Assembly (NCBI RefSeq): GCF_037975245.1
Contig: NC_092577.1
Location: 13,757,013 to 13,821,012 of the forward strand
Length of the DNA stretch: 64,000 bases
Reading direction: 5' to 3'
From: Apostichopus japonicus
Lineage: Eukaryota > Echinodermata > Holothuroidea > Aspidochirotida > Stichopodidae
Positions 5,262 through 64,000 of this stretch are shown here, in pieces (position 1 is the stretch's first letter; every line of letters begins with the position of its first letter). The notes under the pieces are model-generated. The model had not been told where the DNA came from. It searched no databases and worked only from the letters and a program-made list of their open reading frames with translations. A program made the position numbers and the translations under genes.

Positions 5262-5500
5262 GTGAGTGTTACGGCTATGGTGACCCTCATTACTTTGACT
5301 TCGCTGGTCAACACTTTGATAACCAAGGCGTTGGGACATACATACTCAGTAGGGATCTCAGCCAGGACCCTCCATTGTATATGGTTTTAATTGACAATAT
5401 ACCGTGTGAAGCATATCCAACCACTAGTTGTCCTCAGCAACTGATTGTTGAAACTATGGAACACAGGATACAGCTCTTTGGAAATCTCACCGACATTTTC
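5262..5500 (+). CDS. Exon: first half of VWD domain 1
   Basis: The acceptor is ...ccgcacag at 5251-5261 and the donor gtaagt at 5501. Length is 239 bp, entering in phase 1 and leaving in phase 0. The translation opens GECYGYGDPHYFDFAGQHFD, the start of a von Willebrand factor type D domain with the GDPH motif, and continues with GTYILSRD and a Cys-containing strand (IPCEAY, TSCPQQLIVE). In some mucin D domains the Asp-Pro bond of GDPH is cleaved autocatalytically. Whether that happens here is unknown. A potential N-glycosylation site (NLT) lies near the end. Exon 18810-19048 is its paralogue with exactly the same length. The preceding exon was not found. Confidence 0.92.
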
Positions 5501-23500: not shown

Positions 23501-26500
23501 TTCTATTCTGAAGTTTATGTAGCTTTTCATCACAGCCTTTTTACACAATAGTGACATGAATGTTGTCTTTAGTGCTAACTGAGTTGTTTAAATTGGGAAT
23601 ATACCTGTGTAATGTCTCTGGGATCCTTGCGTGCATGTGAGTGTGACTCACTATGAAACTTTTTCACTGTGCATTACAATGGGTCGCGGCAATCATGGGA
23701 GGATCATCAATGAGTGTCTTTGTGAGGCTTGCCTTAGCCTATTGTTACAGTTATAATTGCTTTCTTCTGAAGTATGTCAAGTGGTGAAAGATTTATAACT
23801 GTTAGTGTCTGACTGATCATATGACTCCATGTTGCAAACCATGTCATAACAATGAGAAATTCTAGGCAGTTACCATGGCTATCTTTCAAATGAATACCAT
23901 ACATTTCATTTTTGATTGCGAATGGTACAAGAGAAAAACATTCTAAAACATCAGCCAGTACCACCTATCATTCTTGGAAAGTTGCAATGGGAAGTAAATG
24001 CTAAGTACAACAGTGCATTTGAATATCCTTTTATATACATATGAAATTTTAAAGTGAAGATTGTGTATCCATCCAATAAAACCTGCCTGTACAACTGTGA
24101 TGACATGTTTTCATTGTTTTACTATTTTTGGCAGAGCAGTTAGACCACTGAAATCATTTTAGAGCTTTTACTTGTGCCCTGACTGATCAATTTCTCAAAC
24201 ACAGCTGTATTAAAGTTATAGTCTGTTTTGATACCATTTGAAATATAACCAATACATACTCCTCAAAATTTGCATCAGTGTTTCAGAGTATATCACAAGT
24301 TAATATTGTAGACTTAAGTTTCATTTCTTGTGAAAAATGCTGAATAGATATATTTCGATACATTGGTCATATTGTGCTATCAGTCTTTTGCATCAAATAT
24401 TTTATCTTCTTTCAATATGTTAAGAATGTTTATAAGTAACAATATGCAAGCAAGCTATTCAAACATTTGCATACCATAAAAAAGTTGCTATTTTACAGCA
24501 TTACATTAGACCAAACCCATTACTTACAGAGATAACAAATTGTATTCCTTTATGATCATTGGAGTGGAAATGTCCAAATCTAATCACTTGTAGCTGCTTG
24601 TTGTGGCGGTATCTAACCTTATGCACTCTCACCTAAAGGTTGCAAGTAATAGCTTATTTGCGTATGTCATAGGTTACGGAAGTATAATAAAAGTTAATAT
24701 CAATTTATGTCTGTTACACATTTGTAGAAATATAATAAATATTCTGTTCTCAAACTTTATAGCAGTCCATTGAAGGAGTGCAGTGTTCTACTTTTTTGTT
24801 TGTCTAAATTGTATCTTTTATGTATTTTCAAGCTGAAAGTTGTGTTACTTGAAACAGAAGAGATTATTTGTTCTTACAAGTAGTGTACAACTTTTCAAAG
24901 TTTTGTACATAACTTTGTGTCAGGGTGGTATGGACACTAGCTCCTGTTGAAATTGTTTAAAACTTCTCTTACTAGTTCTGCTTCACTTGGCTTCATCAAA
25001 TTTAAAAAAAAACAAAGATAGACTTGTGGAATAACGATAAGCTTGACTTATGGTTACACAAATGTACATGATCAATGGTATTTAGCAACAAAATGTAAAA
25101 GATCTATTCTTCTGAACAGAAAAGCACTATTCATTCTCCTGAAATTGATGCTTTCTGAAACCATCTAATTCTGTTAACATTTAAATATTTCCACTATTTT
25201 TTGGGGTTCTGGTTTTGACACAATAGGATGATTTAAAATTTGAGAATGTCTATTGTTGATTTATTAACGGTGTAAACATGTCACAAACTATGCAACTTAA
25301 GCAGGTAGCTTAAACAAAAGCAACATGTGTATGAAAAATTGATATTTTTCATCAAAGCTTCATAAAAAAGAACTCAAAAATATACATGTGATTCTACTTA
25401 TATGCTGATCCTACTTATATGCTTGTTATACATGGAGAATTGCGTACATATTGTTAATAGCCATAGAAGGAAGGCAGATATTTTTCTGGCTCAGCTTGGT
25501 GTTGGTTAGTAAAGTTCTTTAGGTTAATATATTGAAGAAACAAGTAACATCTTATTTTGGTATTTTGAAATTTCAAGAAGAAGTGTGTCAAGAACTAAGA
25601 AGTGTGTCAAGAACTTCTTTACATCAAAACAAGTTGCTTTTCCCTTTGTTAAATTTCACTCTTTTTCTGTTAAAGCTATATCAAGTACTTTAGCACCTGT
25701 CGTGACTCTAACAGGACCCGTGAAAACCGAACCACAACAAGGCAAGGCAACATTCTTTTCATGCATAATCCACTTCATCATCAGTGATCATCTTTAATAT
25801 TGGAAACTTTAATTTCTTTGCTCTATATTCTTTTAAACCATTTTAACCATTTTACCCATTTATGATGTCCATTACTAAGGCAAGGTTTTCTTTATGGCTT
25901 CAGTAGTTAACATCATCAGTAAAATGAAGCAGTAGCATCCCATGCAAAGCTGCCTTTGGTAACAAGGTAAACTGGGCTATAATTTCCATTCTCTTACCTA
26001 CCCTACAAACCGTTGCTGTTAAATCATATTTGATAATGATACTTTCATTATTTGGGAAGTGTATAGAGCCAATTACTAGCATCTATAGACAAATTGCAGT
26101 TGAAAGTGCCCCTGCATGGTTATCTTGTGATATGTACCGCAGTAAAGAGAACGCTGTCACCTATTCTGCTGGTGAGAGTGGGATGCAAACTGTTGTACAC
26201 ATGGTTCTGATTTGTTTGTGTGATCCTCTGGTGATTTCTGTTTATTTTCTGTATATTTCTCAATGTATATCCTCACAGGGATACGAACATCAACAGCAAC
26301 TGAAGAATACAACACCCCTTCACCGTCCAGCTTGGTATCAACTTCTACAAGATCAACATCATCCTCAACATCATCATCAACATCAACTTCCCCTTCATTT
26401 ACCTTGACTTCTTTTACTAGTATTTCTGAAACGTCACCAGCTACTTTTACGCTGACATCCCCGATATCCTTTACCCAAACATCCCCAAAAGGCACATCAT

Positions 26501-29500
26501 TCACCAGCCGAGCATCGACGAGTACATCACAAACTCCATCTTCCCCATTCTCTCCTAGCCATTTCAGTCCAGGGACATCACTTTCAAGTAGTCCCTCACC
26601 AGAGCTAAGTACAACTATCAACAAGATAAGTACTACAATGACATCACATGAGACAACATCGGTATCTAAAACAGAATCCACCCCAGGACCTTCATCTACA
26701 TCTGGAACATCAGTATCAGGCACTTCAGTTTCTAAGGAACCAAGTACAACATCTGTAACCGGTACAAGTCCTACAGTGACTTCACATGAAACTACATCAG
26801 TATCTGAAACAAGTCCCGAATCCACTCCAGGACCGTCATCTACATCTGGAACATCAGTATCAGGCACTTCTGTTTCTAAGGAACCAAGTACAACATCTGT
26901 AACCGGTACAAGTCCTACAGTGACTTCACATGAAACTACATCAGTATCTAAAACAAATCCGGAATCCACTCCAGGATCTACATCTGGAACATCAGTATCA
27001 GGCACTTCTGTTTCTAAGGAACCAAGTACAACATCTGTAACCGGTACAAGTCCAACAGTGACTTCACATGAAACTACATCAGTAACTGAAATAAGTCCCG
27101 AATCCACTCCAGGACCTTCATCTACATCTGGAACATCAGTATCAGGCACTTCTGTTTCTAAGGAACCAAGTACAACATCTGTAACCGGTACAAGTCCAAC
27201 ATTGACTTCACATGAAACTACATCAGTATCTGAAACAAGTCCCAAATCCACTCCAGGACCTTCATCTACATCTGGAACATCAGTATCAGGCACTTCTGTT
27301 TCTAAGGAAACAAGTACAACATCTGTAGCCGGTACAAGTCCTACAGTGACTTCACATGAAACTACATCAGTATCTGAAACAAATCCGGAATCCACTCCAG
27401 GATCTACATCTGGAACATCAGTATCAGGCACTTCTGTTTCTAAGGAACCAAGTACAACATCAGTTACTGGTACAAGTCCAACATTGACTTCACAAGAAAC
27501 TACATCAGTATCTGAAACAAGTCCCGAATCCACTCCAGGACCTTCATCTACGTCTGGAACATCAGTATCAGGCACTTCTGTTTCTAAGGAACCAAGTACA
27601 ACATCTGTAACCGGTACAAGTCCTACAGTGACTTCACATGAAACTACATCAGTATCTAAAACAAATCCGGAATCCACTCCAGGATCTACATCTGGAACAT
27701 CAGTATCAGGCACTTCTGTTTCTAAGGAACCAAGTACAACATCTGTAACCGGTACAAGTCCAACAGTGACTTCACATGAAACTACATCAGTAACTGAAAT
27801 AAGTCCCGAATCCACTCCAGGACCTTCATCTACATCTGGAACATCAGTATCAGGCACTTCTGTTTCTAAGGAACCAAGTACAACATCTGTAACCGGTACA
27901 AGTCCAACATTGACTTCACATGAAACTACATCAGTATCTGAAACAAGTCCCAAATCCACTCCAGGACCTTCATCTACATCTGGAACATCAGTATCAGGCA
28001 CTTCTGTTTCTAAGGAAACAAGTACAACATCTGTAGCCGGTACAAGTCCTACAGTGACTTCACATGAAACTACATCAGTATCTGAAACAAATCCGGAATC
28101 CACTCCAGGATCTACATCTGGAACATCAGTATCAGGCACTTCTGTTTCTAAGGAACCAAGTACGACATCAGTTACTGGTACAAGTCCAACATTGACTTCA
28201 CAAGAAACTACATCAGTATCTGAAACAAGTCCCGAATCCACTCCAGGACCTTCATCTACATCTGGAACATCAGTATCAGGCACTTCTGTTTCTAAGGAAC
28301 CAAGTACAACATCAGTAACCGGTACAAGTCCTACAGTGACTTCACATGAAACTACATCAGTATCTGAAACAAGTCCGGAATCCACTCCGGGACCTTCATC
28401 TACATCTGGAACATCAGTATCAGGCACTTCTGTTTCTAAGGAACCAAGTACAACATCTGTAACCAGTACAAGTCCTACTCAAACTTCACATGAAAGAACA
28501 ACTTCGACAGTATCAAAGGAACAAACTACATTGAAGCCTACTGTAACTAGTATTAAGATTTCGACTATTGGATCAAGCAGCGAACAAACAGGAAGTGTTA
28601 CACCATCTACATTTACAGAGTTTAGCTCAACAATCAACCAAACACCATCAACACCGGAGTCAACTACTTCATCGACTGATGAAGGTACCACACCTGTTGT
28701 GATTGTTACTGGAAGTGTTAGTCAAACAACTCAAGAAGGTAGTACTCCAACACAACCAACCGTTACTCCCAGTCTCACGTCAAGCTCTCCTTTAACAACC
28801 ACTTCTGCTCTAACAGTTGGTACTACCCTTCCAGTCACAGTAATTTCATCAGTTGAAACTTCTACACCAGTTCCTGAAGTAACAACTACAGGTATGACAC
28901 CTTCAAGTAGTTTTGTTACAGCTCCACCTGAAATGTCAACTATCATTTCAAGTGTGGGTACACCAGCAACACCTGTAAGTACTACAATAACAGGCCATAC
29001 TGATGAAACAGTACCTAATACAACAGGCATTACACCCAGTACAAGTACAGGTATAGTATCTTCAGCAGAACCCACAAGTACAACAAAAAGTACATCCTCG
29101 AAGAGTGTATCAACTCCATTGTCGACCTCTGTCACAAATGTTCCAACAACAAGTAAAGTATCTACCTCAATTTCAACTGTTACAATAGCAAGTAGTGAAA
29201 CACCAATATCAACAAGTACATTAACAACATTAACTCTTGCTTCTGTTCCTACACAAATACACACAACTGAAACTACAACAACTGAGGAATGTGAAACAAC
29301 GACACTACCATCGGTTACCCCATCTACCATTGGTGAAAGCAGTACATCAACACATACTCCTTTTACTCCCAGTTCAACCATCAGTACTATTTCGAATACA
29401 CCACCTGTGATCACAATAGCTACAGAAGGCACAACACCTAAGGAAACAAGTCCATCCATTCTATCAACAGAGACAGCACCAACAACTTTCAGCACACGAA

Positions 29501-32500
29501 CACCACAAGAAGGAACTACACCATTCACATCTATATCACAGCAACCAAGCACTACATCTATCACTAGAACAAAACCTACAGAAACATCAGAAACAACTAC
29601 ATCAGTCTCTGAAACAAGTCCCGAATCCACTCCAGGACCTTCATCTACATCTGGAACATCAGTATCAGGCACTTCTGTTTCTAAGGAACCAAGTACAACA
29701 TCTGTAACCGGTACAAGTCCTACAGAAACATCAGAAACAACTACATCAGTCTCTGAAACAAGTCTCGAATCTACTCCAGGACCTTCATCTACATCTGGAA
29801 CATCAGTATCAGGCACTTCTGTTTCTAAGGAACAAAGTACAACATCTGTAACCGGTACAAGTCCAACAGTGACTTCACATGAAACTACATCAGTATCTGA
29901 AACAAGTCCCGAATCCACTTCAGGACCTTCATCTACATCTGGAACATCAGTATCAGGCACTTCTGTTTCTAAGGAACCAAGTACAACATCAGTTACTGGT
30001 ACAAGTCATACAGTGACTTCACATGAAACTACATCAGTATCTGAAACAAGTCCGGAATCAACTCCAGGACCTTCATCTACATCTGGAACATCAGTATCAG
30101 GCACTTCTGTTTCTAAGGAACCAAGTACAACATCAGTAACCGGAACAAGTCCAACAGTGACTTCACCTGAGACTACATCAGTATCTGAAACAAGTCCGGA
30201 ATCTACTCCAGGACCTTCATCTACATCTGGAACATCAGTATCAGGCACTTCTGTTTCTAAGGAACAAAGTACAACATCTTTAACCGGAACAAGTCCATCA
30301 TTGACTTCACATGAAACTACATCAGTATCTGAAACAAGTACAGAATCCACTCCAGGACCTTCATCTACATCTGGAACATCAGTATCAGGCACTTCTGTTT
30401 CTAAGGAACCAAGTACAACATCAGTAACTGGAACAAGTCCAACATTGACTTCACAAGAAACTACATCAGTATCTGAAACAAGTCTGGAATCTACTCCAGG
30501 ACCTTCATCTACATCTGGAACATCAGTATCAGGCACTTCTGTTTCTAAGGAACCAAGTACAACATCAGTAACTGGTGCAAGTCCTACAGTGACTTCACAT
30601 GAAACTACATCAGTATCTGAAACAAGTCCGGAATCTACTCCAGGACCTTCATTTACATCTGGAACATCAGTATCAGGCACTTCTTTTTCTAAGGAACAAA
30701 GTACAACATCTGTAACCGGAACAAGTCCATCATTGACTTCACATGAAACTACATCAGTATCTGAAACAAGTAAAGAATCCACTCCAGGAACTTCATCTAC
30801 ATCTGGAACATCAGTATCAGGCACTTCTGTTTCTAAGGAACCAAGTACAACATCTGTAACCGGTACAAGTCCAACAGTGACTTCACCTGAGACTACATCA
30901 GTATCTGAAACAAGTCTGGAATCTACTCCAGGACCTTCATTTACATCTGGAACATCAGTATCAGGCACTTCTGTTTCTAAGGAACCAAGTACAACATCAG
31001 TAACTGGTACCAGTCCAACATTGACTTCACAAGAAACTACATCAGTATCTGAAACAAGTCCGGAATCCACTCCAGGACCTTCATCTACATCTGGAACATC
31101 AGTATCAGGCACTTCTGTTTCTAAGGAACCAAGTACAACATCAGTAACTGGTACAAGTCCAATATTGACTTCACAAGAAACTACATCAGTATCTGAAACA
31201 AGTCTCGAATCTACTCCAGGACCTTCATCTACATCTGGAACATCAGTATCAGGCACTTCTGTTTCTAAGGAACCAAGTACAACATCAGTAACCGGTACAA
31301 GTCCTACAGTGACTTCACATGAAACTACATCAGTATCTGAAACAAGTCCCGAATCCACTCCAGGACCTTCATCTACATCTGGAACATCAGTATCAGGCAC
31401 TTCTGTTTCTAAGGAACCAAGTACAACATCAGTAACCGGTACAAGTCCAACAGTGACTTCACATGAAACTACATCAGTATCTGAAACAAGTCCCGAATCC
31501 ACTCCAGGAACTTCATTTACATCTGGAACATCAGTATCAGGCACTTCTGTTTCTAAGGAACAAAGTACAACATCTGTAACCGGTACAAGTCCTACAGTGA
31601 CTTCACATGAAACTACATCAGTATCTGAAACAAGTCCCGAATCCACTCCAGGACCTTCATCTACATCTGGAACATCAGTATCAGGCACTTCTGTTTCTAA
31701 GGAACAAAGTACAACATCTGTAACCGGTACAAGTCCAACAGTGACTTCACATGAAACTACATCAGTAACTGAAATAAGTCCCGAATCCACTCCAGGACCT
31801 TCATCTACATCTGGAACATCAGTATCAGGCACTTCTGTTTCTAAGGAACCAAGTACAACATCTGTAACCGGTACAAGTCCAACATTGACTTCACATGAAA
31901 CTACATCAGTATCTGAAACAAGTCCCAAATCCACTCCAGGACCTTCATCTACATCTGGAACATCAGTATCAGGCACTTCTGTTTCTAAGGAAACAAGTAC
32001 AACATCTGTAGCCGGTACAAGTCCTACAGTGACTTCACATGAAACTACATCAGTATCTGAAACAAATCCGGAATCCACTCCAGGATCTACATCTGGAACA
32101 TCAGTATCAGGCACTTCTGTTTCTAAGGAACCAAGTACGACATCAGTTACTGGTACAAGTCCAACATTGACTTCACAAGAAACTACATCAGTATCTGAAA
32201 CAAGTCCCGAATCCACTCCAGGACCTTCATCTACATCTGGAACATCAGTATCAGGCACTTCTGTTTCTAAGGAACCAAGTACAACATCAGTAACCGGTAC
32301 AAGTCCTACAGTGACTTCACATGAAACTACATCAGTATCTGAAACAAGTCCGGAATCCACTCCGGGACCTTCATCTACATCTGGAACATCAGTATCAGGC
32401 ACTTCTGTTTCTAAGGAACCAAGTACAACATCTGTAACCAGTACAAGTCCTACTCAAACTTCACATGAAAGAACAACTTCGACAGTATCAAAGGAACAAA

Positions 32501-35500
32501 CTACATTGAAGCCTACTGTAACTAGTATTAAGATTTCGACTATTGGATCAAGCAGCGAACAAACAGGAAGTGTTACACCATCTACATTTACAGAGTTTAG
32601 CTCAACAATCAACCAAACACCATCAACACCGGAGTCAACTACTTCATCGACTGATGAAGGTACCACACCTGTTGTGATTGTTACTGGAAGTGTTAGTCAA
32701 ACAACTCAAGAAGGTAGTACTCCAACACAACCAACCGTTACTCCCAGTCTCACGTCAAGCTCTCCTTTAACAACCACTTCTGCTCTAACAGTTGGTACTA
32801 CCCTTCCAGTCACAGTAATTTCATCAGTTGAAACTTCTACACCAGTTCCTGAAGTAACAACTACAGGTATGACACCTTCAAGTAGTTTTGTTACAGCTCC
32901 ACCTGAAATGTCAACTATCATTTCAAGTGTGGGTACACCAGCAACACCTGTAAGTACTACAATAACAGGCCATACTGATGAAACAGTACCTAATACAACA
33001 GGCATTACACCCAGTACAAGTACAGGTATAGTATCTTCAGCAGAACCCACAAGTACAACAAAAAGTACATCCTCGAAGAGTGTATCAACTCCATTGTCGA
33101 CCTCTGTCACAAATGTTCCAACAACAAGTAAAGTATCTACCTCAATTTCAACTGTTACAATAGCAAGTAGTGAAACACCAATATCAACAAGTACATTAAC
33201 AACATTAACTCTTGCTTCTGTTCCTACACAAATACACACAACTGAAACTACAACAACTGAGGAATGTGAAACAACGACACTACCATCGGTTACCCCATCT
33301 ACCATTGGTGAAAGCAGTACATCAACACATACTCCTTTTACTCCCAGTTCAACCATCAGTACTATTTCGAATACACCACCTGTGATCACAATAGCTACAG
33401 AAGGCACAACACCTAAGGAAACAAGTCCATCCATTCTATCAACAGAGACAGCACCAACAACTTTCAGCACACGAACACCACAAGAAGGAACTACACCATT
33501 CACATCTATATCACAGCAACCAAGCACTACATCTATCACTAGAACAAAACCTACAGAAACATCAGAAACAACTACATCAGTCTCTGAAACAAGTCCCGAA
33601 TCCACTCCAGGACCTTCATCTACATCTGGAACATCAGTATCAGGCACTTCTGTTTCTAAGGAACCAAGTACAACATCTGTAACCGGTACAAGTCCTACAG
33701 AAACATCAGAAACAACTACATCAGTCTCTGAAACAAGTCTCGAATCTACTCCAGGACCTTCATCTACATCTGGAACATCAGTATCAGGCACTTCTGTTTC
33801 TAAGGAACAAAGTACAACATCTGTAACCGGTACAAGTCCAACAGTGACTTCACATGAAACTACATCAGTATCTGAAACAAGTCCCGAATCCACTTCAGGA
33901 CCTTCATCTACATCTGGAACATCAGTATCAGGCACTTCTGTTTCTAAGGAACCAAGTACAACATCAGTTACTGGTACAAGTCATACAGTGACTTCACATG
34001 AAACTACATCAGTATCTGAAACAAGTCCGGAATCAACTCCAGGACCTTCATCTACATCTGGAACATCAGTATCAGGCACTTCTGTTTCTAAGGAACCAAG
34101 TACAACATCAGTAACCGGAACAAGTCCAACAGTGACTTCACCTGAGACTACATCAGTATCTGAAACAAGTCCGGAATCTACTCCAGGACCTTCATCTACA
34201 TCTGGAACATCAGTATCAGGCACTTCTGTTTCTAAGGAACAAAGTACAACATCTTTAACCGGAACAAGTCCATCATTGACTTCACATGAAACTACATCAG
34301 TATCTGAAACAAGTACAGAATCCACTCCAGGACCTTCATCTACATCTGGAACATCAGTATCAGGCACTTCTGTTTCTAAGGAACCAAGTACAACATCAGT
34401 AACTGGAACAAGTCCAACATTGACTTCACAAGAAACTACATCAGTATCTGAAACAAGTCTGGAATCTACTCCAGGACCTTCATCTACATCTGGAACATCA
34501 GTATCAGGCACTTCTGTTTCTAAGGAACCAAGTACAACATCAGTAACTGGTGCAAGTCCTACAGTGACTTCACATGAAACTACATCAGTATCTGAAACAA
34601 GTCCGGAATCTACTCCAGGACCTTCATTTACATCTGGAACATCAGTATCAGGCACTTCTTTTTCTAAGGAACAAAGTACAACATCTGTAACCGGAACAAG
34701 TCCATCATTGACTTCACATGAAACTACATCAGTATCTGAAACAAGTAAAGAATCCACTCCAGGAACTTCATCTACATCTGGAACATCAGTATCAGGCACT
34801 TCTGTTTCTAAGGAACCAAGTACAACATCTGTAACCGGTACAAGTCCAACAGTGACTTCACCTGAGACTACATCAGTATCTGAAACAAGTCTGGAATCTA
34901 CTCCAGGACCTTCATTTACATCTGGAACATCAGTATCAGGCACTTCTGTTTCTAAGGAACCAAGTACAACATCAGTAACTGGTACCAGTCCAACATTGAC
35001 TTCACAAGAAACTACATCAGTATCTGAAACAAGTCCGGAATCCACTCCAGGACCTTCATCTACATCTGGAACATCAGTATCAGGCACTTCTGTTTCTAAG
35101 GAACCAAGTACAACATCAGTAACTGGTACAAGTCCAATAATGACTTCACAAGAAACTACATCAGTATCTGAAACAAGTCCGGAATCTACTCCAGGACCTT
35201 CATCTACATCTGGAACATCAGTATCAGGCACTTCTGTTTCTAAGGAACCAAGTACAACATCAGTAACCGGTACAAGTCCTACAGTGACTTCACATGAAAC
35301 TACATCAGTATCTGAAACAAGTCCCGAATCCACTCCAGGACCTTCATTTACATCTGGAACATCAGTATCAGGCACTTCTGTTTCTAAGGAACCAAGTACA
35401 ACATCAGTAACCGGTACAAGTCCAACAGTGACTTCACATGAAACTACATCAGTATCTGAAACAAGTCCCGAATCCACTCCAGGAACTTCATTTACATCTG

Positions 35501-41500: not shown

Positions 41501-44500
41501 CATCTGGAACATCAGTATCAGGCACTTCTGTTTCTAAGGAACCAAGTACAACATCTGTAACCGGTACAAGTCCAACAGTGACTTCACATGAAACTACATC
41601 AGTATCTGAAACAAGTCCAGAATCCACTCCAGGACCTTCATCTACATCTGGAACATCAGTATCAGGCACTTCTGTTTCTAAGGAACCAAGTACAACATCT
41701 GTAACCGGAACAAGTCCTACAGTGACTTCACATGAAACTACATCAATATCTGAAACAAGTCCAGAATCCACTCCAGGACCTTCATCTACATCTGGAACAT
41801 CAGTATCAGGCACTTCTGTTTCTAAGGAACAAAGTACAACATCTGTAACCGGTACAAGTCCAACAGTGACTTCACATGAAACTACATCAGTATCTGAAAC
41901 AAGTCCAGAATCCACTCCAGGACCTTCATCTACATCTGGAACTTCAGTATCACATACTTCAATATCACTGACATCAACTTCTACTTCTGTAAGTGTTACA
42001 AGCACCTCTCAAACTTCAGAAAGAACAACTTCGACAGTATCAGAGGAACAAACTACATTGAAGCCTACTGTAACTAGTGTTAAGATTTCAACCATTGGAT
42101 CAAGCAGTGAACGAACAGGAAGTGTTACACCATCTACATTTACAGAGGTTAGCTCAACAATCAACCAAACACCATCAACACCGGAGTCAACTACTTCATC
42201 GACTGATGAAGGTACCACACCTGTTGTGATTGTTACTGGAAGTGTTAGTCAAACAACTCAAGAAGGTAGTACTCCAACACAACCAACCGTTACTCCCAGT
42301 CTCACGTCAAGCTCTCCTTTAACAACCACTTCTGCTCTAACAGTTGGTACTACCCTTCCAGTCACAGTAATTTCATCAGTTGAAACTTCTACACCAGTTC
42401 CTGAAGTATCAACTACAGGTATAACACCTTCAAGTAGTCTTGTTACAACTCCACCTGAAATGTCAACTATCTTTTCAAGTGTGGGTACACCAGCAACACC
42501 TGTAAGTACTACAATAACAGGCCATACTGATGAAACAGTACCTAATACAACAGGCATTACACCCAGTACAAGTACAGGTATAGTATCTTCAGCAGAACCC
42601 ACAAGTACAACAATAAGTACATCCTCAAAGAGTGTATCAACTCCATTGTCGACCTCTGCCACAAATGTTCCAACAACAAGTAAAGTATCTACCTCAATTT
42701 CAACTGTTACAATAGCAAGTAGTGAAACACCAAAATCAACAACAAGTACATTACCAACAGTAACTCATGCTTCTGTTCCTACACAAATACACACAACTGA
42801 AACTACCACAACTGAGGAATGTGAAACAACGACACTACCATCGGTTACCCCATCTACAATTGGTGAAAGCAGTACATCAGTACATACTCCTTTTACTCCC
42901 AGTTCAGCCATCAGTACTATTTCGAATACACCACCTGTGATCACAATAGCTACAGAAGGCACAACACCTAAGGAAACAAGTCCATCCATTCTATCAACAG
43001 AGACAGCACCAACAACATTCAGTACACAAACACCACAAGAAGAAACTACACCAATCACATCTATATCACAGCAACCAAGCACTACATCTATCACTAGAAC
43101 AAAACCTACAGAAACATCAGAAACAACTACATCAGTCTCTGAAACAAGTCCTGAATCCACTCCAGGACCTTCATCTACATCTGGAACATCAGTATCAGGC
43201 ACTTCTGTTTCTAAGGAACCAAGTACAACATCTGTAACCGGTACAAGTCCTACAGTGACTTCACATGAAACTACATCAGTCTCTGAAACAAGTCCCAAAT
43301 CCACTCCAGGACCTTCATCTACATCTGGAACATCAGTATCAGGCACTTCTGTTTCTAAGGAACAAAGTACAACATCTGTAACCGGTACAAGTCCTACAGT
43401 GACTTCACATGAAACTACATCAGGATCTGCAACAAGTCCCGAATCCACTCCAGGACCTTCATCTACATCTGGAACATCAGTATCAGGCACTTCTGTTTCT
43501 AAGGAACCAAGTACAACATCAGTAACCGGAACAAGTCCAACAGTGACTTCACCTGAGACTACATCAGTATCTGAAACAAGTCCGGTATCTACTCCAGGAC
43601 CTTCATCTACATCTGGAACATCAGTATCAGGCACTTCTGTTTCTAAGGAACCAAGTACAACATCAGTTACTGGTACAAGTCCTACAGTGACTTCACATGA
43701 AACTACATCAGTATCTGAAACAAGTCCAGAATCCACTCCAGGACCTTCATCTACATCTGGAACATCAGTATCAGGCACTTCTGTTTCTAAGGAACCAAGT
43801 ACAACATCAGTAACCGGAACAAGTCCAACAGTGACTTCACCTGAGACTACATCAGTATCTGAAACAAGTCCGGTATCTACTCCAGGACCTTCATCTACAT
43901 CTGGAACATCAGTATCAGGCACTTCTGTTTCTAAGGAACCAAGTACAACATCAGTAACTGGTACAAGTCCAACATTGACTTCACAAGAAACTACATCAGT
44001 ATCTGAAACAAGTCCGGAATCCACTCCAGGACCTTCATCTACATCTGGAACATCAGTATCAGGCACTTCTGTTTCTAAGGAACCAAGTACAACATCAGTT
44101 ACTGGTACAAGTCCTACAGTGACTTCACATGAAACTACATCAGTATCTGAAACAAGTCCGGAATCCACTCCAGGACCTTCATTTACATCTGGAACATCAG
44201 TATCAGGCACTTCTGTTTCTAAGGAACAAAGTACAACATCTGTAACCGGTACAAGTCCAACAGTGACTTCACATGAAACTACATCAGTATCTGAAACAAG
44301 TCCCGAATCCACTCCAGGACCTTCATCTACATCTGGAACATCAGTATCAGGCACTTCTGTTTCTAAGGAACCAAGTACAACATCTGTAACCGGAACAAGT
44401 CCTACAGTGACTTCACATGAAACTACATCAATATCTGAAACATCAGTATCAGGCACTTCTGTTTCTAAGGAACCAAGTACAACATCTGTAACCGGTACAA

Positions 44501-47500: not shown

Positions 47501-50500
47501 AAACAACTACATCAGTCTCTGAAACAAGTCCCGAATCTACTCCAGGACCTTCATTTACATCTGGAACATCAGTATCAGGCACTTCTGTTTCTAAGGAACA
47601 AAGTACAACATCTGTAACCGGTACAAGTCCTACAGTGACTTCACATGAAACTACATCAGTATCTGAAACAAGTCCGGAATCCACTCCAGGACCTTCATCT
47701 ACATCTAAAACTTCAGTATCAGGCACTTCTGTTTCTAAGGAACCAAGTACAACATCAGTTACTGGTACAAGTCCAACATTGACTTCACATGAAACTACAT
47801 CAGTATCTGAAACAAGTCCAATATCCACTCCAGGACCTTCATCTACATCTGGAACATCAGTATCAGGCACTTCTGTTTCTAAGGAACCAAGTACAACATC
47901 TGTAACCGGTACAAGTCCAACAGTGACTTCACATGAATCTACATCAGTATCTGAAACAAGTCCGTATTCTACTCCAGGACCTTCATTTACATCTGGAACA
48001 TCAGTATCAGGCACTTCTGTTTCTAAGGAACAAAGTACAACATCTGTAACCGGTACAAGTCCTACAGTGACTTTACATGAAACTACATCAGTATCTGAAA
48101 CAAGTCCCGAATCCACCCCAGGACCTTCATCTACATCTGGAACATCAGTATCAGGCACTTCTGTTTCTAAGGAACCAAGTACAACATCTGTAACTGGTAC
48201 AAGTCCTACAGAAACATCAGAAACAATGACATCAGTCTCTGAAACAAGTCCCGAATCCACTCCAGGACCTTCATTTACATCTGGAACATCAGTATCAGGC
48301 ACTTCTGTTTCTAAGGAACAAAGTACAACATCTGTAACCGGTACAAGTCCTACAGTGACTTCACATGAAACTACATCAGTATCTGAAGCAAGTCCTGAAT
48401 CCACTCATGGACCTTCATCTACATCTGGAACATCAGTATCAGGCACTTCTGTTTCTAAGGAACAAAGTACAACATCTGTAACCGGTACAAGTCCTACAGT
48501 GACTTCACATGAAACTACATCAGTATCTGAAACAAGTCCGGAATCCACTCCAGGACCTTCATCTACATCTGGAACATCAGTATCAGGCACTTCTGTTTCT
48601 AAGGAACCAAGTACAACATCTGTAACCGGTACAAGTCCAACAGTGACTTCACATGAAACTACATCAGTATCTGAAACAAGTCCAGAATCCACTCCAGGAC
48701 CTTCATCTACATCTGGAACATCAGTATCAGGCACTTCTGTTTCTAAGGAACCAAGTACAACATCTGTAACCGGAACAAGTCCTACAGTGACTTCACATGA
48801 AACTACATCAATATCTGAAACAAGTCCAGAATCCACTCCAGGACCTTCATCTACATCTGGAACATCAGTATCAGGCACTTCTGTTTCTAAGGAACAAAGT
48901 ACAACATCTGTAACCGGTACAAGTCCAACAGTGACTTCACATGAAACTACATCAGTATCTGAAACAAGTCCAGAATCCACTCCAGGACCTTCATCTACAT
49001 CTGGAACTTCAGTATCACATACTTCAATATCACTGTCATCAACTTCTACTTCTGTAAGTGTTACAAGCACCTCTCAAACTTCAGAAAGAACAACTTCGAC
49101 AGTATCAGAGGAACAAACTACATTGAAGCCTACTGTAACTAGTGTTAAGATTTCAACCATTGGATCAAGCAGTGAACGAACAGGAAGTGTTACACCATCT
49201 ACATTTACAGAGGTTAGCTCAACAATCAACCAAACACCATCAACACCGGAGTCAACTACTTCATCGACTGATGAAGGTACCACACCTGTTGTGATTGTTA
49301 CTGGAAGTGTTAGTCAAACAACTCAAGAAGGTAGTACTCCAACACAACCAACCGTTACTCCCAGTCTCACGTCAAGCTCTCCTTTAACAACCACTTCTGC
49401 TCTAACAGTTGGTACTACCCTTCCAGTCACAGTAATTTCATCAGTTGAAACTTCTACACCAGTTCCTGAAGTATCAACTACAGGTATAACACCTTCAAGT
49501 AGTCTTGTTACAACTCCACCTGAAATGTCAACTATCTTTTCAAGTGTGGGTACACCAGCAACACCTGTAAGTACTACAATAACAGGCCATACTGATGAAA
49601 CAGTACCTAATACAACAGGCATTACACCCAGTACAAGTACAGGTATAGTATCTTCAGCAGAACCCACAAGTACAACAATAAGTACATCCTCAAAGAGTGT
49701 ATCAACTCCATTGTCGACCTCTGCCACAAATGTTCCAACAACAAGTAAAGTATCTACCTCAATTTCAACTGTTACAATAGCAAGTAGTGAAACACCAAAA
49801 TCAACAACAAGTACATTAACAACAGTAACTCATGCTTCTGTTCCTACACAAATACACACAACTGAAACTACCACAACTGAGGAATGTGAAACAACGACAC
49901 TACCATCGGTTACCCCATCTACAATTGGTGAAAGCAGTACATCAGTACATACTCCTTTTACTCCCAGTTCAGCCATCAGTACTATTTCGAATACACCACC
50001 TGTGATCACAATAGCTACAGAAGGCACAACACCTAAGGAAACAAGTCCATCCATTCTATCAACAGAGACAGCACCAACAACTTTCAGTACACGAACACCA
50101 CAAGAAGAAACTACACCAATCACATCTATATCACAGCAACCAAGCACTACATCTATCACTAGAACAAAACCTACAGAAACATCAGAAACAACTACATCAG
50201 TCTCTGAAACAAGTCCTGAATCCACTCCAGGACCTTCATCTACATCTGGAACATCAGTATCAGGCACTTCTGTTTCTAAGGAACAAAGTACAACATCTGT
50301 AACCGGTACAAGTCCTACAGTGACTTCACATGAAACTACATCAGTCTCTGAAACAAGTCCCAAATCCACTCCAGGACCTTCATCTACATCTGGAACATCA
50401 GTATCAGGCACTTCTGTTTCTAAGGAACAAAGTACAACATCTGTAACCGGTACAAGTCCTACAGTGACTTCACATGAAACTACATCAGGATCTGAAACAA

Positions 50501-53500
50501 GTCCCGAATCCACTCCAGGACCTTCATCTACATCTGGAACATCAGTATCAGGCACTTCTGTTTCTAAGGAACCAAGTACAACATCAGTTACTGGTACAAG
50601 TCCTACAGTGACTTCACATGAAACTACATCACTCTCTGAAACAAGTCCAGAATCCACTCCAGGACCTTCATCTACATCTGGAACATCAGTATCAGGCACT
50701 TCTGTTTCTAAGGAACCAAGTACAACATCAGTAACCGGAGCAAGTCCAACAGTGACTTCACCTGAGACTACATCAGTATCTGAAACAAGTCCGGTATCTA
50801 CTCCAGGACCTTCATCTACATCTGGAACATCAGTATCAGGCACTTCTGTTTCTAAGGAACCAAGTACAACATCAGTAACTGGTACAAGTCCAACATTGAC
50901 TTCACAAGAAACTACATTAGTATCTGAAACAAGTCCAATATCCACTCCAGGACCTTCATCTACATCTGGAACATCAGTATCAGGCACTTCTGTTTCTAAG
51001 GAACCAAGTACAACATCAGTAACTGGTACAAGTCCAACATTGACTTCACAAGAAACTACATCAGTATCTGAAACAAGTCCGGAATCTACTCCAGGACCTT
51101 CATCTACATCTGGAACATCAGTATCAGGCACTTCTGTTTCTAAGGAACCAAGTACAACATCAGTAACTGGTACAAGTCCTACAGTGACTTCACATGAAAC
51201 TACATCAGTATCTGAAACAAGTCCGGAATCCACTCCAGGACCTTCATTTACATCTGGAACATCAGTATCAGGCACTTCTGTTTCTAAGGAACAAAGTACA
51301 ACATCTGTAACCGGTACAAGTCCTACAGTGACTTTACATGAAACTACATCAGTATCTGAAACAAGTCCAGAATCCACTCCAGGACCTTCATCTACATCTG
51401 GAACATCAGTATCAGGCACTTCTGTTTCTAAGGAACAAAGTACAACATCTGTAACCGGTACAAGTCCTACAGAAACATCAGAAACAACTACATCAGTCTC
51501 TGAAACAAGTCTGGAATCCACTCCAGGACCTTCATTTACATCTGGAACATCAGTATCAGGCACTTCTGTTTCTAAGGAACAAAGTACAACATCTGTAACC
51601 GGTACAAGTCCTACAGTGACTTCACATGAAACTACATCAGTATCTGAAACAAGTCCTGAATCCACTCATGGACCTTCATCTACATCTGGAACATCAGTAT
51701 CAGGCACTTCTGTTTCTAAGGAACCAAGTACAACATCAGTTACTGGTACAAGTCCTACAGTGACTTCACATGAAACTACATCAGTATCTGAAACAAGTCT
51801 GGAATCCACTCCAGGACCTTCATCTACATCAGGAACATCAGTATCAGGCACTTCTGTTTCTAAGGAACCAAGTACAACATCTGTAACCGGTACAAGTCCT
51901 ACAGTGACTTCACATGAAACTACATCAGTATCTGAAACAAGTCCTGAATCTACTCCAGGACCTTCATCTACATCTGGAACATCAGTATCAGGCACTTCTG
52001 TTTCTAAGGAACCAAGTACAACATCAGTAACTGGTACAAGTCCAACATTGACTTCACAAGAAACTACATCAGTATCTGAAACAAGTCCGGAATCTACTCC
52101 AGGACCCTCATCTACATCTGGAACATCAGTATCAGGCACTTCTGTTTCTAAGGAACAAAGTACAACATCTGTAACCGGTACAAGTCCTACAGTGACTTCA
52201 CATGAAACTACATCAGTATCTGAAACAAGTCCCGAATCCACTCCAGGACCTTCATCTACATCTGGAACATCAGTATCAGGCACTTCTGTTTCTAAGGAAC
52301 CAAGTACAACATCTGTAACTGGTACAAGTCCAACATTGACTTCACATGAAACTACATCAGTATCTGAAACAAGACCCGAATCCACTCCAGGACCTTCAAC
52401 TACATCAGGAACATCAGTTTCAGGCACTTCTGTTTCTAAGGAACCAATTACAACATCTGTAACTGGTACGAGCCCTACATTGACTTCACATGAAACTACA
52501 TCATTATCTGAAACAAGTCCTGTATCCACTCTAGGACCTTCAACTACATCAGGAACATCAGTATCAGGCACTTCCGTTTTTAATGAACCAAGCACAACAT
52601 CTGGTACTGGTACTAGTGTTACTTCTGGATCCTCTCGTACATCTGTAGGATCAGTATCATATACTTCCCTATCAGTATCAGAGACCAGTCCTGTTTCCAC
52701 TCCTATTACTTTTAGTGAAAGCACTACAACATATACACCGATGACTACTCCACTGACTTTACCATCAAAGCCAGATACAAGTTCTATTACTTTAATAACA
52801 AATACACCTATCTCAGATCTGACCACAAATGTATCCAACCCCCTTCCAACATCAGCTGGCTTGACTACAATTACATCTGCTGCATCAAGCAGCGACATCA
52901 CAAAAGCACCAACACCATCCATGATTTCAACAACTGCAGTCAGGTTAAGCAGTGTAATGTCCTCATCAGAGGGTAGTACCATCACATCCAAACCAACAGT
53001 CACATCAGTAACAAAAAAACCAACCACAGAAGTATCAGCTACACTGACAAGTGAAACTACAACACCAGAGGGAGGTATTTCCACTATTAGCACAAGTGGT
53101 AAGTCAACCTTATTTTCTCTAAGTACAATATTAAATTCTGCCTCTTCAGGTATTAGTACAGATTCAAGAACAGAAGAAACATCTTCCTCTTCATTGACTT
53201 CCAGTGATTTGACACACAGACCATCAACTCCAGCTAGTTTCACACTCACAGCGACACTAGCTCCCTCAAATACAGGTTACACAATTACACCAACTCCACT
53301 GTCCACTCCAACCAGTTCAGTTACTAATGAAGTAACAGAAATGCTCACTAGTAAACTTAGACCTGAGGTAAGTACCACTAATAATGTTCCTTTGATTAGC
53401 ACAACGTCCTCTATTATAACTCAAACTACTGAAAGACTGTTCCCTCCAGATGCAGTTTACACCGAAATCACACAATCATCAGATGTTTTGGTAACTGCAT

Positions 53501-56500
53501 TACCGTTCCACTCTTATCACACAACAAACCAAGTATCAACCCATAGCACAACACCATTGCCTCACACTCATTTACTCAGTGAAGGAGTCCCAACAGAAGA
53601 AATACCTTCTACTTCAAATAATGAAACATCACTATCTACAAGTAAGACATCATCTTCAATATCCAATTCACTCACTGAAATGAGCCCAGAATCTACTGCA
53701 GGACCTTCATCTACATCTGGAACTTCAGTATCAGGCACTTCTGTTTCTGAGGAACCAAGTACAACATCTGTAACTGGTACAAGTCCGCATACAACACATG
53801 AAGAAACTACATCAGTATCTGAAACAAGTCCCGAATCCACTCCAGGACCTTCATCTACATCTGGAACAACAGTATCAGGCACTTCTGTTTCTAACGAACC
53901 TAGTACAACATCTGTAACCGGTACAAGTCCTACAGTGACTTCACATGAAACAACATCAGTATCTGAAACAAGTCCACAATCCACTCCAGGATCTTCATCT
54001 ACATCCAAAATATCGCTATCAGGCACTTCTGTTTCTAAGGGTTCAAGTACAACCTCTCTAACTGGAACAAGTCCTACAGTGACTTCACATGAAACTACAT
54101 CAGTATCTAAAACAAGTCCACAATCCACTCCAGGATCTCCATATACGTCAGGAACTTCGGTATCAGGCACTTCTGTTTCTAAGGAACCAAGTACAACACC
54201 TGTAACTGGTACAAGTCCTACGATTACTTCACATGAAACTACATCATTATCTGAAACAAGTCCAAAATCCACTCCAGGACCTTCATCTGGAACATCAGTA
54301 TCAGGCACTTCTGTTTCTAAGGAACCAAGTACAACATCTGTAACCGGTACAAGTCCTACTGTGACTTCACATGAAACTACATCAGTATCTGAAACAAGTC
54401 CAGAATCCACTCCAGGACCTTCATCTGGAACATCAGTATCAGGCACTTCTGTTTCTAAGGAACCCAGCACAACATCTGTAACTGTTACAAGTCCTACAGA
54501 GACTTCACATGAAACTACATCAGTATCTGAAACAAGTCCCGAATCCACTCCAGGACCTTCATCTACATCTGAAACTTCAGTATCAGGCACTTCTGTTTCT
54601 AACGAACCTAGTACAACATCTGTAACCGGTACAAGTCCTACAGTGACTTCACATGAAACTACATCAGTATCTGAAACAAGTCCAGCATCCACTCCAGGAT
54701 CTTCATCTACATCTAGAATATCGCTATCAGGCACTTCTGTTTCTAAGGGTTCAAGTACAACCTCTCCAACTGGAACAAGTCCTACAGTGACTTCACATGA
54801 AACTACATCAGTATCTAAAACAAGTCCACAATCCACTCCAGGATCTTCATATACGTCAGGAACTTCAGTATCAGGCACTTCTGTTTCTAAGGAACCAAGT
54901 ACAACATCTGTAACCGGTACAAGTCCTACAGTGACCTCACATGAAACTACATCATTATCTGAAACAAGTCCCGTATCCACTCCAGGACCTTCATCTGGAA
55001 CATCAGTATCAGGCACTTCTGTTTCTAAGGAACCAAGTACAACATCTGTAACAGGAACAAGTCCTAAAGTGACTTCACATGAAACTACATCAGTATCTAA
55101 AACAAGTCCACAATCCACTCCAGGATCTTCATCTACGTCAGGAACTTCGGTATCAGGCACTTCTGTTTCTAAGGAACCAAGTACAACACCTGTAACTGGT
55201 ACAAGTCCTAAGTTTACTTCACATGAAACTACATCAGTATCTGAAACAAGTCCAGAATCTACTCCAGGACCTTCATCTGGAACATCAGTATCAGGCACTT
55301 CTGTTTCTAAGGAACAAAGTACAACATCAGTAACTGGTACAAGTCCAACAGTGACTTCACATGAAACTACATCAGTATCTGAAACAAGTCCGGTATCCAC
55401 TCCAGGACCTTCATCTACATCTGGATCATCAGTATCAGGCACTTCTGTTTCTAAGGAACCAAGTACAACATCTGTAACCCAAACAAGTCCAACAGTGACT
55501 TCACATGAAACTACATCAATATCTGAAACAAGTCCAGAATCCACTCCAGGACCTTCATCTACATCTGGAGCATCAGTATCAGGCACTTCTGTTTCTAAGG
55601 AACCAAGTACAATATCTGTAACCGGAACAAGTCCAACATTGACTTCACATGAAACTACATCAGTATCTGAAACAAGTCCAATATCCACTCCAGGACCTTC
55701 ATCTACATCTGGAACATCAGTATCTTCAGTTTCTAAGGAACCAAGTACAACATCTGTAACCCGAACAAGTCCTACAGTGACCTCACATGAAACAACATCA
55801 GTATCTGAAACAAGTCCCGAATCCACTCCAGGACCTTCATCTACATCTGGAGCATCAGTATCAGGCACTTCTGTTTCTAAGGAACAAAGTACAACATCTG
55901 TAAGCGGTACAAGTTCTACACTGACTTCACATGAAACTACATCAGTATCTGAAACAAGTCCAGAATCCACTCCAGGACCTTCATCTACATCTGAAACTTC
56001 AGTATCACATACTTCAATATCACTGTCATCAACGTCTACTTCTGTAAGTGTTACAAGCACCTCTCAAACTTCAGAAAGAACAACTTCGACAGTATCAGAG
56101 GAACAAACTACATTGAAGCCTACTGTAACTAGTGTTAAGATTTCAACCATTGGATCAAGCAGCGAAAGAACAGGAAGTGTTACACCATCTACATTTACAG
56201 AGTTTAGCTCAACAATCAACCAAACACCATCAACACCGGAGTCCACTACTTCATCGACTGATGAAGGTACCACACCTGTTGTGATTGTTACTGGAAGTGT
56301 TAGTCAAACAACTCAAGAAGGTAGTACTCCAACACAACCAACCGTTACTCCCAGTCTCACGTCAAGCTCTCCTTTAACAACCACTTCTGCTCTAACAGTT
56401 GGTACTACCCTTCCAGTCACAGTAATTTCATCAGTTGAAACTTCTACACCAGTTCCTGAAGTATCAACTTCAGTTATAACACCTTCAAGTAGTCTTGTTA

Positions 56501-59500
56501 CAACTCCACCTGAAATTTCAACTATCTTTTCAAGTGTGGGTACACCAGCAACACCTGTAAGTTCTACAGTAACAGGCCATACTGATGAAACAGTACCTAA
56601 TACAACAGGCATTACACCCAGTACAAGTACAGGTATAGTATCTTCAGCAGGACCCACAAGTACAACAATAAGTACATCCTCAAAGAGTGTATCAACTCCA
56701 TTGTCGACCTCTGCCACAAATGTTCCAACAACAAGTAAAGTATCCACCTCATTTTCAACTGTTACAATAGCAAGTAGTGACACCCCAATATCAACAACAA
56801 GTACACTAACAACAGTAACTCATGCTTCTGTTCCTACACATATACACACAACTGAAACTACAACAACTGAGGAATGTGAAACAACAACACTACCATCGGT
56901 TACCCCATCTACCATTAGTGAAAGCAGTACATCAACAAATACTCCTTTTACACCCAGTTCAACCATCAGTACTATTTCAAATACACCACCTGTCACAATA
57001 TCTACAAAAGATACGACACCTAAGGGAACAAGTCCATCCATTCTACCAACGGAGACAGTACCAACAACTTTCAGCACACGAACACCACAAGAAGGAACTA
57101 CACCAATCACACCTATATCACAGAAACTAAGCACTACATCTATCACAACTGAAACTACAACAACTGAGGAATGTGAAACAACGACATTACCATCGGTTAC
57201 CCCGTCTACTATTCATGAAAGCAGTACATCAACAAATACTCCTTTTACTCCTAGTTCAACCATCGTTACTATTTCAAATACACCACCTGTCACAATTTCT
57301 ACAAAAGATACGACACCTAAGGGAACAAGTCCATCCATTCTACCAACGGAGACAGCACCAACAACTTTCAGCACAAGAACACCACAAGAAAGAACTACAC
57401 CAATCACACCTATATCACAGCAACCAAGCACTACATCTATCACTCAAACAAAACCTACAGAAACATCAGAAACGACTACATCAGTATCTGAAACAAGCCC
57501 AGAATCCACTCCGGGGCCTTCATCTACATCTAGAACATCAGTATCAGGCACTTCTGTTTCTAAGGAATCAAGTACAACATCTGTAACCGGTACAAGTCTT
57601 ACAGCGACTTCACATGAAACTACATCAGTATCTGAAACAAGTCCCGAATCCACTCCAGGACCTTCATCTACATCTGGAACTTCAGTAACAGGCACTTCTA
57701 TTTCTAAGGAATCAAGTACAACATTTGTAACTGGTACAAGTCCTACAGTGACTTCACATGAAACTACATCAGTATCTGAAACAAGTCCCGAATCCACTCC
57801 AGGACCTTCATCTACATCTGGAACATCAGTATCAGGCACTTCTGTTTCTAAAGAACAAAGTACAACATCTGTAACCCGTACAAGTCCAACAGTGACTTCA
57901 CATGAAACTACATCACTATCTGAAACAAGTCCTGAATCCACTCCAGGATTTCCCTCTACATCTGGAACATCAGTATCAGGCATTTCTTTTTCTAAAGAAC
58001 AAAGTACAACATCTGTTACCGGTACAAGTCCAACAGTGACTTCACATGAAACTACATCAGTATCTGAAACAAGGCCCGAATCCACTCCAGGACCTTCATC
58101 TACATCTGGAACTTCAGTATCAGGCACTTCTGTTTCTAAGGAACCAAGTACATCATCTGTAACCGGTACAAGTCCTACATTGACTTCACATGAAACTACA
58201 TCAGTATCTGAAACAAGTCCTGAATCCACTCCAGGATTTTCCTCTACATCTGGAACGTCAGTATCAGGCACTTCTGTTTCTAAGGAACCAAGTACAACAT
58301 CTGTAACCGGTACAAGTCTTACAGGGACTTCACATCAAACTACATCAGTATCTGAAACAAGTCCTGAATCCACTCCAGGATTTCCCTCTACATCTGGAAC
58401 ATCAGTATCAGGCATTTCTGTTTCTAAAGAACAAAGTACAACATCTGTTACCGGTACAAGTCCAACAGTGACTTCACATGAAACTACATCAGTATCTGAA
58501 ACTAGTCCTGAATCCACTCCAGGATTTCCCTCTACATCTGGAACATCAGTATCAGGCATTTCTGTTTCTAAGGAACAAAGTACAACATCTGTAACCGGTA
58601 CAAGTCCTACAGTGACTTCACATGAAACTACATCAGTATCTGAAACAAGTCCCGAATCCACTCCAGGACCTTCATCTACATCTGGAACTTCAGTAACAGG
58701 CACTTCTGTTTCTAAGGAACCAAGTACATCATCTGTAACCGGTACAAGTCCTACAGGGACTTCACATCAAACTACATCAGTATCTGAAACAAGTCCCGAA
58801 TCCACTCCAGGACCTTCATCTACATCTGGAACTTCAGTATCAGGCACTTCTGTTTCTAAAGAACCGAGCACAACATCTGTAACTGGTACAAGTCCAACAG
58901 TGACTTCACATGAAACTACATCAGTATCTGAAACAAGTCCCAAATCCACTCCAGGATTTTCATCTACATCTGGAACATCAGTATCAGGCACTTCTGTTTC
59001 TAAGGAACCAAGTACAACATCTGTAACCGGTACAAGTCCTACAGTGACTTCACATGAAACTACATCAGTATCTGAAACAAGTCCAGAATACACTTCAGGG
59101 TTTTCATCTACATCTGGAACATCAGTATCAGGTACTTCTGTTTCTAAGGAACCAAGTACAACATCTGTAACCGGTACAAGTCCTACTGTGACTTCACATG
59201 AAACCACATCAGTATCTGAAACAAGTCCAGAATCCACTTCAGGACTTTCATCTGGAACATCAGTATCAGGCACCTCTGTTTCTAAGGAACCCAGCACAAC
59301 ATCTGTAACTGTCACAAGTCCTACAGAGACTTCACATGAAACTACATCAGTATCTGAAACAAGTCCCGAATCCACTCAAGGACCTTCATCTACATCTGGA
59401 ACTTCAGTATCAGGCACTTCTGTTTCTAAGGAACCAAGTACAACATCTGTAACAGGAACAAGTCCTAAAGTGACTTTACATGAAACTACATCAGTATCTG

Positions 59501-64000: not shown

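Follow-up and report, generated by a model that had tools for sequence, protein, structure and literature searches.

A predicted gel-forming mucin gene of the sea cucumber Apostichopus japonicus with one uninterrupted Pro/Thr/Ser frame, most likely a single exon of about 52,000 bases

Open frame and repeat array

We have analysed a 64,000-nucleotide stretch of the Apostichopus japonicus genome (assembly GCF_037975245.1, contig NC_092577.1, positions 13,757,013 to 13,821,012), hereafter the window. It contains a tandem repeat array rich in proline, threonine and serine (Pro/Thr/Ser), flanked by exons matching mucin domains. Coordinates below are those of the window, plus strand, unless a contig is named. 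The array belongs to a predicted giant Pro/Thr/Ser exon that starts at 26279, crosses the window end and would extend to 78481 (contig 17, 13783291-13835493). The last stop upstream of the array in the sense frame starts at 26221; the frame is open from 26224 and no stop follows through 64000, in agreement with the original prediction of an open frame from 26279 to the window end. The other two plus frames contain 495 and 788 stops, respectively, between 26000 and 64000. Translation of the adjacent 40 kb of genome showed that the sense frame stays open until a stop at 78652, and a six-frame genome search with a unit-derived protein returned the same 17,476-codon stop-free frame at every match listed.

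Both ends of the predicted exon are compatible with splicing. A polypyrimidine-AG acceptor (CCTCACAG) lies just before the first exon bases, GGATAC, at 26279, and a donor (CCATCAG/GTATGA, the slash marking the boundary) directly follows 78481. The exon predicted between these sites would measure 52,203 bp (3 × 17,401), with phase 1 at both ends, and its translation comprises 17,400 whole codons and zero stops. The exon end had originally been left to be sought beyond the window, and the figures first given, at least 37.7 kb and more than 12,500 residues, hold as lower bounds. The uninterrupted frame of about 52,000 bases is most likely a single exon.

The repeat unit is 144 bp long and encodes 48 residues (consensus SVSKEPSTTSVTGTSPTVTSHETTSVSETSPESTPGPSSTSGTSVSGT). 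Unit anchors number 276 in the exon, with 207 inside the window, close to the "about 210" units estimated before. We have aligned 275 units pairwise, and their identity to the consensus had a mean of 0.956 and a minimum of 0.882. The indels consisted of 23 deletions of 6 bases, four insertions of 3 and three deletions of 42, and one further unit was aligned with a deletion of 1 plus a deletion of 2, summing to 3. Every net length change, including that of the latter unit, is therefore a multiple of three, which had originally been claimed for every indel.

The array is broken by eight longer intervals, namely seven spacers and one unique segment. Measured from anchor to anchor, two spacers have 415 residues, two have 463 and three have 561, and the unique segment has 389. 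Five spacers and the sole unique segment lie inside the window, a count made beforehand and borne out by the unit alignment; two more spacers lie beyond it. The first two (28429-29673 and 32404-33648) are identical, with no difference in the alignment. They are followed by the third (41815-43203) and fourth (48880-50268), by the non-repeated, in-frame unique segment (52573-53739) and by a spacer of a third family (55870-57552), which has copies beyond the window at 66151-67833 and 73558-75240. The exon encodes 5,091 Ser, 4,670 Thr and 1,617 Pro in 17,400 residues (65% Ser/Thr/Pro) and just ten cysteines, every one of them in the spacer motif TTTTEECETTTLPSV. Across 26001-64000 we also observed a strong strand asymmetry, with a GC skew of about -0.24 to -0.38 per kb and a positive AT skew. 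Codons for Thr, Ser and Pro, ACA and TCA among them, would be expected to produce this.

A genome search with the unit protein gave 154 matches, and those listed all fall in the giant exon. The search with spacer DNA gave 73 matches, all on contig 17 within the exon; four of six candidates were scored and the query's own site was unlisted, so that this search cannot show an absence of copies elsewhere.

Mucin domain exons and the gene model

Upstream of the giant exon, the domains are ordered D1 (VWD-C8-TIL), D2, D' (TIL) and D3, with 10 of 10 open reading frames (ORFs) over the cut-off for VWD, C8 or TIL. The predicted D'-D3 had Mucin-2 as its best structure match (E = 1.9e-114 summed over seven stretches, the best single one with 111.8 bits). 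Its matches among solved structures were Mucin-2, MUC5AC, MUC5B, FCGBP and VWF, with 33 distinct sequences at E ≤ 0.001. After D3 come a 6,669-bp Pro/Thr/Ser exon, two extra VWD-C8-TIL modules and then the giant exon.

Eight ORFs of the extra modules matched VWD, C8 or TIL, five of them over the cut-off (three VWD halves and two C8). In the first module, the two VWD halves were placed by hand at 5262-5500 (phase 1 in and 0 out; PF00094, 38.7 bits) and 6621-6822 (phase 0 in and 1 out; 28.6 bits), both over the cut-off. The remaining exons come from the gene model described below: C8 (8428-8745; PF08742, 53.4 bits) and a TIL-like exon (9476-9661), whose 19.1 bits against PF01826 fall short of the cut-off of 24.5. 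They are followed by a short Pro/Thr/Ser exon of the model (11894-12106, phase 1/1). The second module, likewise made of model exons, contains the VWD halves at 18810-19048 (49.3 bits) and 19751-19949 (21.2 bits, narrowly missing the cut-off of 22.9), C8 at 20535-20861 (58.9 bits) and, last before the giant exon, a TIL-like exon at 21726-21905 (18.1 bits, again below cut-off).

Downstream, CysD domains (Mucin2_WxxW) take over. Of 25 scored genome matches to this family, 20 lie just past the giant exon (contig 17, 13838590-13910544), all over the cut-off, and CysD matched the Mucin-5B structure with E = 1.6e-19. The CysD exons have phase 1/1 and Pro/Thr/Ser tails. Further downstream are Pro/Thr/Ser exons of 3,936 and 14,172 bp, the larger of which (122033-136204) contains 70 cysteines in its 4,748-codon open frame, compared with ten in the giant exon. 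Seven near-identical tandem CysD exons at 142716-150564 gave seven PF13330 matches of 42.8 bits each and appear to be a recent amplification. No C8 was found downstream of the giant exon among the 147 matches listed, nor VWC in 13.70-13.93 Mb of contig 17 among 83; both scans scored the best candidates only, so that absence is not proven. When the two predicted terminal exons were joined, they matched PF03045 with 22.5 bits (cut-off 22) and the CTCK of VWF with E = 0.05, weak matches for a probable C-terminal cystine knot.

The mucin identity of the array had earlier been deduced from composition and repeats, and it is now shown by the flanking VWD, C8, TIL and CysD exons. Judged from its sequence, the gene would be a gel-forming mucin of unusual domain order. 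The VWD, C8 and CysD context argues against a SEA-type membrane mucin, although no search aimed at SEA was made.

We have built an ab initio model of the gene by dynamic programming, chaining splice sites and codon scores. It contains 57 exons from -30493 to 157253, totalling 98,351 nt, and would encode a protein of 32,782 residues (3.3 MDa; 60.7% Pro/Thr/Ser) with one terminal stop. The automatic chain, in which 40 of 55 exons had phase 1/1, carried one junction stop, and manual placement of the VWD exons starting at 5262 and 6621 removed it. Matching phase was a condition in selecting the chain, and its stop-free state is therefore not independent evidence. A model with stricter thresholds kept 24 exons, skipping many domain exons, and contained the identical giant exon. 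Some pieces of the full model are weak, e.g., -22155 to -22127 and the last exon, with scores below 0. A signal-peptide first exon was not found, as a simple upstream scan gave loose candidates only. We infer that D1-D3, the giant exon and the probable cystine knot form one gene, because they share strand and phase and no other N- or C-terminal module lies between them.

Growth, constraint and splicing of the giant exon

Nine block pairs in the exon, with blocks of more than 1.5 kb, have identities of about 98% or more. The blocks of a pair lie 1,728 to 17,688 bp apart, and all nine distances are divisible by three. Such a pattern would be compatible with an exon that has expanded, and is still expanding, through duplication of complete units and of 1.5-4.4 kb blocks, with frame-breaking copy products being removed by selection.

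Near-identical tandem units are also a classic cause of assembler failure, and part of the array could be a false expansion or collapse, its true length being very different. The longest exact repeat within the exon, 3,433 bp, and the nine block pairs would fit this explanation. However, all 5-kb stretches within the exon are unique, as are 98.3% of the 3-kb stretches, and the 214 kb of joined sequence around the locus contain zero N. The presumed source is the published A. japonicus assembly, which according to PMC10344927 was built from HiFi reads averaging 14.7 kb at 64x. With every 5-kb stretch unique, HiFi reads of about 15 kb could resolve the exon; if the assembly is indeed the published one, these reads and the lack of N make the length credible. 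A collapse, moreover, would only make the true exon longer. We consider an artefact of this kind very unlikely.

The original prediction had also held that frame retention implies selection on the protein. This stood in part, retention being partly automatic: any duplication of complete 144-bp units leaves the frame intact, and the open array alone therefore proves little. An open, three-divisible unit remains open when copied, and open runs of up to 5.9 kb occur in the antisense frame -2 as well. The frame might then be open merely through copying, with no selection on a protein or no translation at all. The substitutions speak against this. Among about 1,700 substitution copies in the units there were no stops, against about 129 copies expected from synonymous-site rates; counted as distinct variants, the stops were 0 against 7.0 expected from the same rates. 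Non-synonymous substitution copies numbered 858 against 2,020 expected. Four non-repeated stretches of the exon (1,173 codons) contained 0 stops against 58.8 expected, with 5-25 stops in each of their other two frames. Spacers, head, tail and unique segment are all open, the splice sites are phase-matched and mucin context lies on both flanks. Selection is implied by the lack of stops both among the substitution copies and in the non-repeated parts, and an array kept open by copying alone is most improbable. A GAA to TAA unit variant (three copies) had been flagged as a stop and was discarded, the translation having none there and reading as three SPYST/SPYSS units. The ratio of non-synonymous to synonymous substitution rates (dN/dS) between the three spacer families was 0.42-0.78, which indicates weak to moderate constraint on the spacers; no pair within a family shows more than four differences, and dN/dS means little there.

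We have also scanned the exon for internal splice sites, with thresholds of 3.2 for donors and 2.7 for acceptors. Three strong donors (53099, 53368 and 78170) and twelve strong acceptors were found. Donors occurred at 0.057 per kb in the exon, 0.292 in introns and 0.109 in 30 synonymous-codon permutations, and acceptors at 0.23, 1.72 and 0.91 per kb, respectively. Splice-site avoidance was dropped as a proof of one exon: when the unit was recoded at random with synonymous codons, 6.6% of 2,000 versions had donor and acceptor maxima as weak as those of the consensus, and one unit repeated about 270 times is a single observation.

One pair of these sites delimits a candidate 51-bp phase-1 GT-AG intron at 53099-53149, whose splicing would yield two giant exons of 26,820 and 25,332 bp instead of one. 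Its donor (GTG/GTAAGT) scores 4.08 and its acceptor (CTCTTCAG, at 53150) 2.94. The stretch is T-rich (20 of 51), it has the phase of most introns here, and it sits mid-exon in the sole unique segment. When five intron stretches (29,255 bp) and two further Pro/Thr/Ser exons (20,841 bp) were scanned by the same criteria, neither set yielded a pair. On the other hand, all model introns have at least 372 bp (median 972), the pair was singled out post hoc, and sites of this type are more likely to turn up in unique T-rich sequence. Moreover, 51 is a multiple of three and the stretch is in frame and stop-free if retained, so that coding use suffices to explain it. We consider two separately spliced giant exons unlikely. 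A softer form would be a retained or exitron-like segment. The 51 bp are read here as coding sequence, and they may be what is left of an intron that formerly divided two Pro/Thr/Ser exons.

Taken as a whole, the best reading of the genomic sequence, to which we would give a probability of about 80%, is that the array is the main Pro/Thr/Ser exon of a secreted gel-forming mucin gene, a single exon of 52,203 bp that would grow by frame-keeping copying of blocks. The single-exon mucin domain proposed originally is thus retained, on the strength of the open frame and of the flanking VWD, C8, TIL and CysD exons. Several observations weigh against it. The candidate donor at 53099 scores higher than the exon's own donor (4.08 vs. 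3.2), and a second strong donor is present at 53368. The non-synonymous deficit is small when counted as distinct variants (119 vs. 141 expected), and the substitution copies share ancestry and are therefore not independent counts. Both TIL-like exons near the giant exon and one VWD half are below the curated cut-offs; the cystine-knot halves match no Pfam family singly, and PF00007 has no match at the locus, with three elsewhere in the genome. The joined gene model, finally, is self-built, with two exons placed by hand, some weak exons and no signal-peptide exon.

Comparison with known mucins and giant exons

If the gene is transcribed and the giant exon spliced whole, as we infer, D1-D2-D'-D3 at the N terminus and the probable cystine knot at the C terminus would form disulfides that join the molecules into long polymers. 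O-glycans on the Ser/Thr units would retain water, and the CysD domains, together with the ten single spacer cysteines, could provide extra contact points. The outcome would be slime or gut mucus.

Such a protein would share with the vertebrate gel-forming mucins MUC2, MUC5AC, MUC5B and MUC6 the D1-D2-D'-D3 assembly, repetitive Pro/Thr/Ser sequence in one or more large exons and, probably, the C-terminal cystine knot, and with the first three of these also the CysD domains. The sea cucumber gene differs from them in the two extra VWD-C8-TIL modules between Pro/Thr/Ser exons, in its CysD domains, which lie on a series of individual phase-1 exons that all carry a Pro/Thr/Ser tail, and in that no D4 or VWC was found downstream among the matches listed. 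D4 and VWC are not known from some gel-forming mucins, and their lack here would recall MUC6. FCGBP and von Willebrand factor, both among the D'-D3 matches, have VWD-C8-TIL assemblies in common with the sea cucumber gene; to our knowledge, neither has giant Pro/Thr/Ser exons. MUC16 also has a giant Ser/Thr-rich tandem-repeat exon, of about 21.7 kb. It is a membrane mucin with SEA domains, whereas the sea cucumber locus has VWD, C8, CysD and the probable cystine knot. In the Balbiani ring genes, the repetitive centre is a single exon.

The mucin-domain exons of the four human gel-forming mucin genes span 3,009-13,470 bases across the assemblies compared in PMC9712336, against 52,203 bases here; if the latter form a single exon, its length is some four times that of the largest human exon printed there. 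The Chironomus Balbiani ring genes (BR1, BR2.1, BR2.2 and BR6) are insect salivary silk-like genes and not VWD mucins, and they are shorter than 52 kb. PMC4192438 puts their length at about 40 kb, of which the repetitive centre takes up about 35 kb, so that a single sea cucumber exon would be half as long again as that centre. The earlier claim of a place among the largest animal coding exons is upheld as far as these comparators go. We have found no published account of this gene or of a 52-kb coding exon in a search that left subscription journals largely outside, and the Holothuria glaberrima genome paper (PMC13228809) has no occurrence of mucin, mucus or VWD. The kind of gene is known, and its scale is new as far as checked.

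With a single exon of this size one could ask how the splicing machinery recognises 52 kb as one exon and spares its interior, how cells produce, pack and glycosylate a core protein of more than 3 MDa from an mRNA of about 100 kb, and in what way tandem arrays expand while selection preserves their frame. With slightly less than even confidence, we tentatively propose that it is the largest coding exon of any animal, carried in an mRNA of about 100 kb for a polypeptide that, at about 33,000 residues, ranks with the longest known, and that its length varies between the alleles of individuals by in-frame block copying. Titin is near that size. The species is farmed commercially, and the gene would offer a concrete candidate for the backbone of its slime and gut mucus, with allele lengths that are directly measurable.

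Some other loci were noted during the genome searches. Dense VWD and C8 matches run along 15.81-15.95 Mb of contig 15, perhaps one or more very large VWD-repeat genes. The VWD/C8 clusters at 6.68, 6.80 and 6.93 Mb of contig 10 and at 17.14, 17.24 and 21.45 Mb of contig 1 have matching scores and spacing and look like recent whole-gene copies. Seven VWD matches each were found in an uninterrupted frame of 1,205-1,285 codons at 7.75-7.85 Mb of contig 19 and 20.82-20.90 Mb of contig 8, these VWD genes being apparently intronless. Contig 29 contains five COX1 pieces (14745-16086 and 30842-31219), besides the 16,099-bp mitochondrial contig 35, whose genes are arranged as in sea urchins and sea cucumbers. 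The interval of about 16 kb between the pieces points to a mitochondrial copy that is misassembled or repeated.
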